Of a DNA stretch of 64,000 bases, positions 58,723 through 64,000 are shown piece by piece. This DNA comes from Candidatus Gastranaerophilales bacterium (lineage in GTDB: Bacteria > Cyanobacteriota > Vampirovibrionia > Gastranaerophilales > Gastranaerophilaceae), in assembly GCA_016282705.1 (NCBI GenBank), contig JAEELO010000006.1, positions 1 to 64,000 of the forward strand, read 5' to 3'. The position numbers and the translations under genes were made by a program. The first letter of the stretch is position 1. Every line of letters begins with the position of its first letter. The notes below the pieces were generated by a model, which worked only from the letters and a program-made list of their open reading frames with translations, made no database searches and was not told the origin of the DNA.

Positions 58723-59391
58723 ATGAATAATCCAATTCACATAATGCTTGTAGAAGATTATAAATTAATAAGGGTTGGTATAAAAAGTATATTCGATGAA
58801 GCAAACGGTTATGAGGTCATATGTGAGGCAGACAACGGCACAGATGCAATAAAAAAAGCGATACAATATAAGCCTGAAATTATAATTTTAGATCTTGAAT
58901 TGCCTGATATGAAAGGCATTAAGGTTATTAAAGAAATATTGAATGCATGTATAATGCCTAAAATAATAGTTCTTTCAGCATATGATAATATAGAAGACAT
59001 TAAAAAATGCATTTCTTTGGGTGTATATGCATACGTAATTAAAGATATAAGTACAGATTCGCTATTAAATATTGTCAAAACCGTACATAAAGGTGCGATG
59101 TGGTTTGATCCTAAAATTGTCCCTAAATTACGAGATAATAATTACAGTATAAATTACTCGGAAAAACAAACTAAAAAAAACTTTAAAAATACCCATGCTA
59201 ATTTAACTCCAAGAGAATTCGAAGTTCTAAAGCTTATTGTAGACGGCAAATCAAACATTGATATTGCTCAAACTTTATGCATAAGTGAACATACAGCTAA
59301 AGCTCACGTATGTAATATAATCCAAAAGCTTGTTGTTGATGACAGAACACAAGCAGCAGTCAAAGCCATAAAAGAAGGTATAATTGAGTAA
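58723..59391 (+). CDS. NarL/FixJ-family response regulator
   Basis: 222 aa; receiver domain (MLVEDYKLIRVGIKSIF, LDLELPDMKGI) and LuxR HTH (LTPREFEVLKLIVDGKSNIDIAQTLCISEHTAKAHVCNIIQKL). Confidence 0.94.
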   Translation: MNNPIHIMLVEDYKLIRVGIKSIFDEANGYEVICEADNGTDAIKKAIQYKPEIIILDLELPDMKGIKVIKEILNACIMPKIIVLSAYDNIEDIKKCISLGVYAYVIKDISTDSLLNIVKTVHKGAMWFDPKIVPKLRDNNYSINYSEKQTKKNFKNTHANLTPREFEVLKLIVDGKSNIDIAQTLCISEHTAKAHVCNIIQKLVVDDRTQAAVKAIKEGIIE

Positions 59392-59487
59392 ATATTTATT
59401 TAAAGTAACGAATTATTAAATTTTAATATGAAAATAACAAAAAATATTATAATGTGACTTATAATAAATAAAAAAATCGGAGATATT

Positions 59488-60627
59488 ATGTCCAAAACAA
59501 TTTCGGAAAACAGAAGGATAAGTGTTAGTGAATTACCTTCAGAAATACCTGATTTTTCAGCTTCATTTGAGCCTAAAGATTCACTTATAAAAAAATGGAT
59601 AATAAACTGGATTAAATCTGCTATTTCAAAAAAAGAAATTAAAGAAAATGATTTAATTCCTAATAAAGCCGATATTTCGCATCATTTAGGCGTAAGTATC
59701 GGTACGGTACAGAATGCTATAAGATATGTTGAAGATGAAGGATATTTAAAATCTAAACAGAAATTAGGTACAATGATTTCCAATTGTACAAACCCTATTT
59801 CTCAAGATAATAAATCAACATCTAAACGTGATAAAGCCGTATTAGCAATAAAAAAAGCAATAATACAAAAAAATTATAAAATAGGAAAACCGATTCCTTC
59901 AACAAGAAAAATGTCCGATTTCTTGGGAATATCTCAAAATACAACACGCCTTGCATACGAATTTTTATGTTCCGAGGGAATACTTGAATCTATGCAAATG
60001 CGAGGTAATGATTCTAACTGGTATTTAAAAAGAATGCCGTCAATTACTTCAATTGATATTAAAAGTATTGAAAATATGTCAGCAGATACTTTAGTAGATA
60101 AAATCACCAAAAGTTTAAAATATTACTTACACGATAATTTTAAATTAGGCGATAAAATACCTTCACACGAAGAACTTGCAAAAAATTTAAACGTAAGTAT
60201 TAAAACAATAAATGATTGTATAAAATCCCTTAACAAAGAGGGTATTGTTATATCAAGAAGGGGCAGATACGGAAGTATATTATCTCAAAACCCGTTAAAC
60301 CCTGTATATGAACCATTAAAAGAAAATTCAATATTTGCAAAAGCTGAAGATGCAGCATTTTATAGTTATCAAAAAATCAAGTCACAAATAACAGACCTTA
60401 TAAACAAAAGTTATAATGCAGGTGAAAAATTACCATCAATGCTTGAATTATCAGCAAAATTTGATGTCAGTACAAATACAGTCAGAAAAGCATTGATTTC
60501 ATTGGAACAAGATGGCATTGTTACTTTTGGACGAGGCAGATTCGGAGGTACATTTGTTATAGAAAAACCGTCAAATTCTGAAAAACAGCAATATCAGTGG
60601 ATTTCTATAAATCCTGATTATATATAG
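59488..60627 (+). CDS. Transcriptional regulator with four tandem GntR-type winged-helix domains
   Basis: 379 aa; four consecutive P--xx-xx-LgVSxxTVxxAixxLexEGxIxxxxxxGxxV-like blocks. Confidence 0.8.
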   Translation: MSKTISENRRISVSELPSEIPDFSASFEPKDSLIKKWIINWIKSAISKKEIKENDLIPNKADISHHLGVSIGTVQNAIRYVEDEGYLKSKQKLGTMISNCTNPISQDNKSTSKRDKAVLAIKKAIIQKNYKIGKPIPSTRKMSDFLGISQNTTRLAYEFLCSEGILESMQMRGNDSNWYLKRMPSITSIDIKSIENMSADTLVDKITKSLKYYLHDNFKLGDKIPSHEELAKNLNVSIKTINDCIKSLNKEGIVISRRGRYGSILSQNPLNPVYEPLKENSIFAKAEDAAFYSYQKIKSQITDLINKSYNAGEKLPSMLELSAKFDVSTNTVRKALISLEQDGIVTFGRGRFGGTFVIEKPSNSEKQQYQWISINPDYI

Positions 60628-60809: not shown

Positions 60810-60977
60810 ATGTCAAATTGTGTATCTGAAGTTCCACAGACTTCAAAAATAAAAACATCTAAATTTACTGAAGAATTTGAAAAATATTTACAAAAACAAT
60901 CATTAAAAGCAACATTTAACGGTTGTGATATAGAAACATTCAGTTGGTATAAAAAGATGCTCGGCATAGGTTGTTAG
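60810..60977 (+). CDS. 55-aa Cys-containing small protein of unknown function
   Basis: My own translation: MSNCVSEVPQTSKIKTSKFTEEFEKYLQKQSLKATFNGCDIETFSWYKKMLGIGC. Strong SD (aaaggaggct) just upstream and a terminator just downstream. Not in the ORF track (below its size cutoff). Confidence 0.7.
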   Translation: MSNCVSEVPQTSKIKTSKFTEEFEKYLQKQSLKATFNGCDIETFSWYKKMLGIGC

Positions 60978-60994
60978 AATTATAAAATATAATA

Positions 60995-61026
60995 AAAAAA
61001 GGAACACAAAATGTTCCTTTTTTTTA
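60995..61026 (+). terminator. Rho-independent terminator after the 55-aa ORF
   Basis: aaaaggaaca-caaaa-tgttccttttttttt hairpin with T tract. Confidence 0.8.
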
Positions 61027-61053: not shown

Positions 61054-61875
61054 ATGAAATTATTATCAAAAATATTATTTTTAATATTAATAGTTATTTC
61101 AATGTCTTCTGCGGTTTTTGCAGAAGAAATACTTATTCTTTTTGATGCTTCTGTCAGCATGAATGAAGATTTTTACGGAAGTCCTAAATATGTTGTTGCA
61201 ATCAGAGAAGCAAAAAAATTTCTTTCAACACTAGATAATAACCGAAGTATAGGACTTCGTACAATAGGTATTAAAGTTGATGAACAAGTTCTGAATTACG
61301 TGATGAACCCTGCTTCTATGTGTAAAGCAACGCAATTAGACGTACCTATCAGAAAAGGGAATAATCAATATATTAATACCGCATTAGACAGTATTCTTCC
61401 TTTGGGAACTACGCCATTAGAGTATAGTTTAAGAACAGCTATTAATTCTGATTTTTCATATGGCAGTGATTTAAAGCATATAGTTTTAATTACGGATGGT
61501 GCTGAAAGCTGTGATGCAGACCCTTGCAGATTTATAAGACAAGTAATGCAAAAGAGAAAAGATATCAGAATTGATGTAATTGCTATTTCTGTTAATAACA
61601 ATGATTTTCTGCAATTAAAATGTCTTACTGATGCAACATCAGGCATAATTACAAATATAAAAAATCCGCAAGAATTACCTAAAGCATATAGTGAAATTCT
61701 TGCTCAACCTTCAATTAATAATACGGCATCTAATTATTCCCGACCGTCAGTTAATAATACTGCAACATCTTATTCTCAGCCTTCAGTTAATAATGTTACA
61801 CCCGCATACGTTCAAAGTGAAAAACAAACAAAAGCAATTTTATATAAAACTATTTACTTTGACACTTATGATTAA
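61054..61875 (+). CDS. Secreted von Willebrand factor A-domain protein (tandem copy 1)
   Basis: Signal peptide; MIDAS-like DASVSMN; ITDGAESCDADPC; C-terminal QPSVNNxxxxYxx repeats. Confidence 0.85.
   Translation: MKLLSKILFLILIVISMSSAVFAEEILILFDASVSMNEDFYGSPKYVVAIREAKKFLSTLDNNRSIGLRTIGIKVDEQVLNYVMNPASMCKATQLDVPIRKGNNQYINTALDSILPLGTTPLEYSLRTAINSDFSYGSDLKHIVLITDGAESCDADPCRFIRQVMQKRKDIRIDVIAISVNNNDFLQLKCLTDATSGIITNIKNPQELPKAYSEILAQPSINNTASNYSRPSVNNTATSYSQPSVNNVTPAYVQSEKQTKAILYKTIYFDTYD
61696..61811 (+). repeat. Short in-frame repeats encoding approx. QPSINNTASNYSR / PSVNNTATSYSQ / PSVNNVTPAYVQ
   Basis: Three consecutive related 12-13-aa units. Confidence 0.6.
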
Positions 61876-61924
61876 TGACTTAATTAATGTTTTTTGTTAG
61901 AATATAATAAGTCTGAGGTCTAAA

Positions 61925-62803
61925 TTGAAAAAGTTTATATTATTTTTTGCTTTAATATTAATATTTTCTATACTTTCTTGTGCTAAAGCGTATCAAGCTT
62001 ATGACGGGAAATATAATTATAATCAGTATGGACCGCAATCCAGAGTTCAAACATATCAAATTAATCCAAATAACTCCAATACTGAAGTACTTTTTATAGT
62101 TGATTTTTCGTCAAGTATGAGAGATTTAATGGGTTCATATACAAAAGCGCAACTGGCTTCTGATGCTTTAATTTCTATTATTAATAATACTGCCAGCCAA
62201 ACAAAAATGGGTTTAAGAATATTCGGTGTTACGGATAAACCTTTAATGACTCAAACACCTAACGGTATTCTTTTTAACAGAAATAACATTTGTACTGCTA
62301 CAAATTTGTTGTTACCAATAGCGAGATACAATGCTTCAAATATTTCATACAAACTGGCAAGAATAAATCCAAACGGCGGCACTCCTATAGGCTATTCTTT
62401 ACGTCAGGCAGTAAAATACGATTTTAGTAACGGTCCTCAACTTAAGCATATTATATTAATAACCGATGGTGGAGAGAACTGCGGCGATAATCCCTGTGCG
62501 TTTATTAACAGCTTAATGTCAATGCGCCACGATTTTAGAGTAGATGTTATTGGAATATCTGTATCTAATAATGCATATTCTCAACTTTCTTGCATCGCAA
62601 AAGCAGGAGGCGGTAACTATTATAGTATATCAAGACCACAAGATTTTAAAATAAAATTCCAGCAGGCATTGGATTCTGTTCCGCATCCCGCACAAAACAT
62701 TAATGCTTCAACAGCTGTTGCACCACCCAGATTTACACCTCCAATTGAACTTTCAAATAATAAAATTCGTTATAAAACATATGGATTTCAGTTCGGTTAC
62801 TAA
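61925..62803 (+). CDS. Secreted von Willebrand factor A-domain protein (tandem copy 2)
   Basis: TTG start; signal peptide; FIVDFSSSMRDL MIDAS; ITDGGENCGDNPC. Confidence 0.85.
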   Translation: MKKFILFFALILIFSILSCAKAYQAYDGKYNYNQYGPQSRVQTYQINPNNSNTEVLFIVDFSSSMRDLMGSYTKAQLASDALISIINNTASQTKMGLRIFGVTDKPLMTQTPNGILFNRNNICTATNLLLPIARYNASNISYKLARINPNGGTPIGYSLRQAVKYDFSNGPQLKHIILITDGGENCGDNPCAFINSLMSMRHDFRVDVIGISVSNNAYSQLSCIAKAGGGNYYSISRPQDFKIKFQQALDSVPHPAQNINASTAVAPPRFTPPIELSNNKIRYKTYGFQFGY

Positions 62804-62875
62804 ATAACATTATATAAAAGATTAATGACAATGCATATTATTTTTGATAATATTGCATTGAGAAGTGAGTGAAAT

Positions 62876-63607
62876 ATGAAAAAAGCAATATTATTTTTTA
62901 TTTTGTCTTGTGTATTATGCTTAACGGCATATTCTGCAAATTATACGTATTCAACACCGGATACTTATAAATATAATCCAAAAGAATCAACATCAATAAA
63001 AGAAAAAATTCTATTTATAGTTGATTTTTCAAACAGTATGAACGAAAATCTCGGACACCGCAGAAAAATAGATATTGCTTTATCAACAATGAGGGAAATT
63101 CTGCCGTTAATTCCCTCAAATGTAGCTGTAGGACTCAGAGTATACGGGCACAGAACTGGATTTACACCAAAACAGAGCTGCACAGCATCTCAATTGGTTT
63201 CTCCAATACAAACTAACAATTCTGCAAACATTTATGCAAGACTTAATTCTATAAATGCAGTCGGTTGGACTCCTATTACATATTCATTGAAACAAGCAGC
63301 ATATTATGATTTTGACGATACAACATCAAAAAAACGTATAATATTAATTAGTGACGGCGGTGAAAACTGTGATGAAAGTCCTTGTGATTTTATTATTAAT
63401 TTACAAAAATATCGCGATGATATTAGAATAGATGTAATCGCACTTGCTATTGGGGATATGGATGCCAATAATCAATTAAAATGCGTAGCACTTGTTACAT
63501 CCGGTAAATTTTATAATGCAAATACTGCAAGTGAGTTAAAAAACAGCTTAGAAGATTCTCTTAATCTACAAAAAGAAGTTCAAGGCGTAATTATTCAAAA
63601 CCATTAA
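62876..63607 (+). CDS. Secreted von Willebrand factor A-domain protein (tandem copy 3)
   Basis: Signal peptide; FIVDFSNSMNEN MIDAS; ISDGGENCDESPC. Confidence 0.85.
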   Translation: MKKAILFFILSCVLCLTAYSANYTYSTPDTYKYNPKESTSIKEKILFIVDFSNSMNENLGHRRKIDIALSTMREILPLIPSNVAVGLRVYGHRTGFTPKQSCTASQLVSPIQTNNSANIYARLNSINAVGWTPITYSLKQAAYYDFDDTTSKKRIILISDGGENCDESPCDFIINLQKYRDDIRIDVIALAIGDMDANNQLKCVALVTSGKFYNANTASELKNSLEDSLNLQKEVQGVIIQNH

Positions 63608-63713: not shown

Positions 63714-64000
63714 ATGAGAATAACTTCAATCGGTTCAACATATTACAGCGGTAATATAAAAAAATCATTAAATTTTGGTTCCGGTGTTTATGTAGCTAAA
63801 AGAGCTAATCCTGATAATAATACATATGTATTCATAGGAAATATGGATTTAGAAGGTTTACATCAATATAGCAAAACTTCTGATAATACATGTAAAAACA
63901 GTATTATAGAAGAGCTTCAATATGGATGTTTTACTGTTCCTTATGGTGATCCGAGAGGTTTAACCCATATTGGATACAGATATATCGACAAATTTGGCGG
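63714..64000 (+). CDS. Hypothetical protein, 3' truncated by window edge
   Basis: Open frame from ATG 63714 to the window end: MRITSIGSTYYSGNIKKSLNFGSGVYVAKRANPDNNTYVFIGNMDLEGLHQYSK...; N-terminus resembles that of the HNH gene (MRITPVTPNITFGTKK). Confidence 0.6.
   Translation, partial: MRITSIGSTYYSGNIKKSLNFGSGVYVAKRANPDNNTYVFIGNMDLEGLHQYSKTSDNTCKNSIIEELQYGCFTVPYGDPRGLTHIGYRYIDKFG

Follow-up and report, generated by a model that had tools for sequence, protein, structure and literature searches.

The gene tetra-GntR, at 59488..60627 of the window (the whole 64,000-nucleotide stretch analyzed), encodes four tandem winged-helix (wHTH) units of the GntR type, and we put the probability at slightly better than even, about 0.55, that its product is a sequence-specific, autoregulated transcription regulator which sets four non-equivalent heads on a long, mostly asymmetric site. 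A single chain would thus bring four different recognition helices to bear on such a site, most likely the conserved block of ~45–50 bp that covers its own promoter, thereby setting its own level. The argument is carried by the composition of the protein, the constraint on its four recognition helices, its retention across the class, and a promoter block that is conserved between genera and unique within genomes.

Domain composition and predicted fold

The gene and the parts of its product lie as follows.

59488..60627, + strand: tetra-GntR (four-wHTH) gene, 379 aa, ATG start
59515..59583, + strand: extension at the N-terminus, conserved and not part of any wHTH unit, SELPxxLPDF...KD; P17, P21 and K30 invariant in A1
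59608..59778, + strand: GntR unit 1, 29.6 bits; recognition helix VSIGTVQNAIR
59806..59835, + strand: basic linker joining unit 1 to unit 2, conserved, with an SKR motif
59830..60006, + strand: GntR unit 2, 36.3 bits; recognition-helix signature N-T-T-R
60103..60267, + strand: GntR unit 3, 36.6 bits; signature VS-x-K-T; wing RGRYG
60367..60558, + strand: GntR unit 4, 56.4 bits; signature VS-x-N-T-x-R-K; wing RGRFGGTF
60568..60624, + strand: C-terminal tail W-[LIV]-[SA]-[IV]-N-P, conserved in the order; low predicted confidence

The original prediction was of four tandem GntR-type winged helices with no effector domain, and both parts of it are borne out. A search of the 379-aa ORF against Pfam (hmmscan) matched PF00392 in four stretches (E = 2.3e-43), rather than in one or two, and in a six-frame search of the source genome, which gave the scores listed above, every unit exceeds the curated Pfam cut-off of 27 bits, applied unit by unit; these four are the only GntR domains above cut-off in the 2.2-Mb source assembly. 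The AlphaFold2 model, for which the input was an alignment of 28 sequences (orthologs), contains four separate wHTH folds, each a helix–helix–helix–strand–strand unit, at residues 30–97, 113–180, 202–265, and 286–357, and no other fold; no non-HTH domain was found by Pfam, NCBIfam, or the model. Many GntR regulators are matched in NCBIfam through their wHTH parts, always far under the cut-offs, and the PDB matches are to GntR DNA-binding domains, a single unit each time. By profile comparison the four units are mutually related, units 3 and 4 being the closest pair.

The units are mostly predicted at pLDDT 80–90, with a pTM of 0.34, so their mutual arrangement is not fixed; the model lends no support to a defined four-domain arrangement on DNA, and the units, joined by flexible linkers, can probably move against one another. 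The linker ahead of unit 4 is conserved, as is the basic one that joins unit 1 to unit 2. The C-terminal tail, which is absent from two members (L128 and L130), is a possible docking motif.

In the textbook GntR protein, a single DNA-binding head is joined to a sensing domain, and the protein works as a dimer on a short palindrome. The known subfamilies have one N-terminal GntR unit followed by a dimerization/ligand or aminotransferase domain (PMC5083789; PMC4494728). Each unit of tetra-GntR is, by profile and predicted fold, a winged helix of this superfamily (FadR, HutC, YtrA, AraR, MocR/GabR), but where classical members carry one N-terminal wHTH and a C-terminal effector/oligomerization domain, tetra-GntR has four units and no effector. 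The aminotransferase-like C-terminal domain of MocR/GabR is likewise missing from it according to Pfam and NCBIfam, and the MocR-type NCBIfam models cover just its wHTH part, far under their cut-offs. PlmA, a GntR-type regulator that is a hallmark of oxygenic cyanobacteria (PMC5083789), comes from a sister lineage but pairs one GntR domain, at its N-terminus, with a distinct domain at the C-terminus; orthology with PlmA was rejected on this difference in architecture and because a search of the phylum with the four-unit profile matched oxygenic cyanobacteria only generically, one GntR unit at a time. Tetra-GntR is GntR by domain, with an architecture outside the GntR subfamilies checked (PlmA, MocR, and one head plus effector). 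Literature searches on tandem or multiple GntR domains, and on Melainabacteria/Vampirovibrionia with GntR, returned no relevant paper from a coverage that mostly excludes subscription journals; the literature searched yielded no report of two-unit effector-less GntR proteins and no regulator study for Gastranaerophilales.

Tandem winged helices also occur in elongation factor SelB, a SECIS RNA-binding protein with a GTPase part. Its C-terminal region has four of them, as tetra-GntR does, and the top Foldseek matches of the model include SelB WH2–WH4 (2uwm, E 8e-5), alongside other tandem-WH proteins, all with low TM-scores. That tetra-GntR is an RNA-binding protein of the SelB kind is nevertheless extremely improbable: its units are GntR by sequence, a DNA-binding family, and SelB is not.

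Constraint on the recognition helices and distribution of the orthologs

Over 90 partly redundant tetra-GntR sequences, the mean entropy of the recognition helix, set against that of the whole domain, is 0.53/1.25 bits in D1, 1.09/1.61 in D2, 1.19/1.41 in D3, and 1.01/1.34 in D4. Conservation within each of the four domains is highest, or close to its highest, in the recognition helix; the wing is about as conserved or slightly more so in D3 and D4. Unit 1 has invariant S70, G72, T73, Q75, A77, I78, and R79 (S-x-G-T-x-Q), unit 3 V236, S237, K239, T240, and D243 (S-x-K-T), and unit 4 V327, S328, N330, R333, and K334 (S-x-N-x-x-R-K), while in unit 2 N151 and T152 are invariant in A1 and R154 nearly so (N-T-x-R). 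The polar ones among these positions match the DNA-contacting residues of FadR and AraR. The DNA contacts of GntR proteins have been tabulated (PMC4494728). Part of this conservation reflects the core of the fold; even so, four conserved helices with distinct invariant signatures make all four units look functional and non-equivalent.

Such helices, best or near-best conserved and differing in their invariant residues, would be unexpected in an architectural, nucleoid-type binder of little sequence specificity, one that bridges or bends AT-rich DNA and has no particular promoter target. Several features would suit such a binder (a core gene, no effector domain, a basic linker, AT-rich genomes, and no regulon motif found), but the gene-specific promoter block that co-occurs with tetra-GntR also argues against it, and we consider it unlikely.

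Of 58 relatives, 49 carry a single full-length ortholog with 40–80% identity, and in one further relative the gene is split into two pieces. Recurrence of the four-unit layout at this identity in so many relatives excludes chance. The window belongs to a Gastranaerophilales genome, and the relatives with an organism name are metagenome-assembled genomes (MAGs) of Candidatus Gastranaerophilales (Melainabacteria). When a profile made from 28 members was searched against 289 genomes of the class, the protein was found in nearly all sampled genomes of the home family and of the order's other families, and as full-length, single-copy orthologs in three more families of the class, f9, f14, and f15 (E 1e-124 to 1e-171); families f8, f12, and f13 gave generic one-unit GntR matches only. 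In a GntR scan of 24 chosen genomes, the units of tetra-GntR made up nearly all GntR domains of the genome in 20, and the other four had neither the gene nor a GntR domain above cut-off. Both are missing from G039, G192, G257, and G289 (99% complete), through loss or an assembly gap; all four match the 55-aa protein described below, G039 weakly. The remote members that were spot-checked have four PF00392 stretches each, which together with the wide occurrence indicates an old and stable architecture rather than a recent tandem duplication. Tetra-GntR is a class-level core gene.

A search for multi-GntR proteins, proposed with the original prediction, thus yields four-unit orthologs across the order and in three further families of the class, and outside them two-unit proteins from Streptomyces plasmids. 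Plasmids gave partial matches only, two of them to these proteins (WP_328373381.1 and WP_212728876.1; 258–265 aa), which resemble tetra-GntR in having tandem GntR units and no Pfam effector domain, but differ in having two PF00392 stretches each and 22–29% identity over part of it; none of the tests applied indicated orthology. Given these proteins, tandem GntR units as such are not unique to tetra-GntR. A viral origin was also considered and rejected, as the viral contigs held no relative and the phage matches were partial and single-unit.

The promoter block and its possible reader

Upstream of the gene, three promoter elements can be distinguished.

59399..59419, + strand: promoter box 1, TTTAAAGTAACGAATTATTAA; conserved in the genus, sole exact match in the source genome
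59431..59448, + strand: promoter box 2, AAAATAACAAAAAATATT; TARCAAA-type core retained in the family's and the order's other genera
59459..59465, + strand: TTATAAT, likely −10 element; 23–24 bp from box 2, nearly fixed within the genus

Throughout the home genus, the promoter has two similar boxes, TTTAAAGTWACRAAWTATTAA and AATAACAAAAAAT, spaced 29–31 bp and followed by TTATAAT. The block in the family's other genera reads about TARCAAAAAWWWW-n-TTGATGTTTTTTTATAAATAGTGTATTATTA; the block is AT-rich, the home genus has a sequence of its own in it, and in 14 promoters of the other genera its mean column identity is 72–93%, versus about 25–55% for the upstream flanks. In several of the order's other families, the tetra-GntR promoter has a core of TAGCAA and an AT run. 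No convincing dyad is apparent in the block by inspection, and Rfam has no match near the locus. Extra half-sites beside GntR palindromes are known (PMC4494728). An extended or repeated operator had been suggested for the protein, and the two halves of this suggestion fare differently: the extended site is favored, indirectly, by the four conserved, distinct recognition helices and by a long, genome-unique promoter block conserved across genera, while the repeated site finds a counterpart in the two similar boxes of the home genus and no clear direct repeats in the block of other genera.

The block is also specific to this gene. A 31-bp pattern with ≤3 mismatches has a single match in 9 of 10 genomes, always directly 5′ of the tetra-GntR gene, and the 20-bp core has one exact match per genome in all eight genomes tried (eight genera), always ahead of the gene. 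Allowing two mismatches in the 20-bp core produced extra matches only at the level of a reversed-pattern control; the same was true of a regulon search with the home-genus box and the other genera's 20-bp core, and the remaining matches of TARCAAAAAA in the source genome are chance-like. No second target site for the block pattern was found in the genomes searched. A motif belonging to promoters in general or to a sigma factor would be expected to recur, as this block does not, and autoregulation appears to be the simplest reading of its conservation and per-genome uniqueness. It would probably be repression, because the block overlaps the −35/−10 region; that all four units bind DNA, that tetra-GntR is the protein occupying the block, and the sign of the regulation are what we infer. 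Tetra-GntR would in addition control further promoters besides its own.

The reader of the block could be a factor other than tetra-GntR: the block may be the site of another regulator, or a peculiarity of the core promoter, with tetra-GntR acting elsewhere and without self-regulation. The link between block and protein is one of correlation, and in the home genus a response-regulator gene adjoins tetra-GntR. Most other genera, however, have no response regulator beside tetra-GntR and still keep the block, and the uniqueness of the block in each genome is easier to reconcile with autoregulation specific to this gene than with a general regulator or sigma factor. We regard a different reader as doubtful, though it deserves to be taken seriously.

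Neighboring genes and possible control of the regulator

The order of genes around tetra-GntR is not conserved past the home genus. Of the flanking features, three are listed here.

58723..59391, + strand: NarL/LuxR-type response regulator, 5′ of tetra-GntR; linkage confined to the home genus and its closest relatives
60810..60977, + strand: conserved 55-aa ORF, ~183 bp 3′ of the tetra-GntR gene; strong RBS
60994..61024, no strand assigned: terminator-like hairpin 3′ of the 55-aa ORF, AAAAAAAGGAACA...TGTTCCTTTTTTT

Throughout the home genus the response regulator lies upstream and secreted proteins of the von Willebrand type (vWA) lie downstream, a retention that would be expected if tetra-GntR were a local pathway regulator of these neighbors. 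Such a role is very unlikely, since both kinds of gene are absent around tetra-GntR in the order's other families, where the protein is still conserved, and no site of the box 1/box 2 type was found ahead of the vWA genes. In the window, three successive related vWA-domain proteins with signal-peptide-like N-termini occupy 61054-63607 (+), and within the home genus their number varies from 1 to 3. A similar short leader, M-x-I-x-x-I..., often with FxG/FGK, begins the ORFs at 63714-63998 (+), L117 2696, and L172 +50; it seems common to many otherwise unrelated ORFs of the lineage and may be a shared N-terminal signal.

Elsewhere the neighbors are of another kind. In genera g30, g33, and g39, the next same-strand gene encodes a putative HExxH metalloprotease of ~237 aa, with HE[AT]GH and then a conserved E-E pair, and begins 6–42 bp after the tetra-GntR stop in most measured loci; Pfam M78 (IrrE-like) matches it under cut-off (E 0.12). 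It was not found within the window. The family (~205–259 aa), seen 3′ of tetra-GntR in L102-L123 and also in L141, L269, L280, L285, and L295, often adjoins the 55-aa gene. The 55-aa protein, with the core SKFTEEFEKYLKKQxLKTTFNGxDIETFSWYKKMLG, has no match in Pfam or NCBIfam, is predicted by AlphaFold to form two helices at modest confidence, and occurs in 190 of the 289 class genomes, almost always as a single copy. Its gene lies 172–296 bp 3′ of tetra-GntR in the home genus, g41, and g47, and after the protease, ~930 bp past tetra-GntR, in g30 and g33; in g43 protease and 55-aa gene stand beside tetra-GntR on the opposite strand, in g24, g28, g29, and g35 they occur together with no tetra-GntR alongside, and in most other sampled genera the 55-aa gene has no protease alongside. 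Each pair among the three genes is adjacent somewhere, and this pattern of gene order suggests a common function, for example proteolytic control of the regulator.

Because tetra-GntR has no ligand domain, its activity is probably set by the amount of protein, by a partner, or by proteolysis, and the HExxH protein encoded downstream in some genera would be the best candidate for the last of these. Repressor–protease pairs are known in ImmR/ImmA and DdrO/IrrE. The likeness to them lies in the putative metalloprotease that follows tetra-GntR in g30, g33, and g39, whereas tetra-GntR is not a Cro/CI-type HTH protein and its neighbor falls under the Pfam M78 cut-off. The full combination, a core regulator specific to the class, a single polypeptide that with four specialized GntR heads and no ligand domain reads an asymmetric operator of ~45–50 bp and is switched by the co-encoded metalloprotease and 55-aa protein, is a tentative proposal that we would not expect to hold in every part.

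With four heads and no sensor, tetra-GntR represents another way of using the GntR fold, and a multi-head autoregulator, if true, would depart from the way in which other GntR proteins work, as a dimer on a palindrome. It is a natural system for asking how chained, specialized winged helices read a long site, and, coming with a candidate operator, it offers a rare handle on regulation in the Gastranaerophilales, gut bacteria that are relatives of the cyanobacteria.
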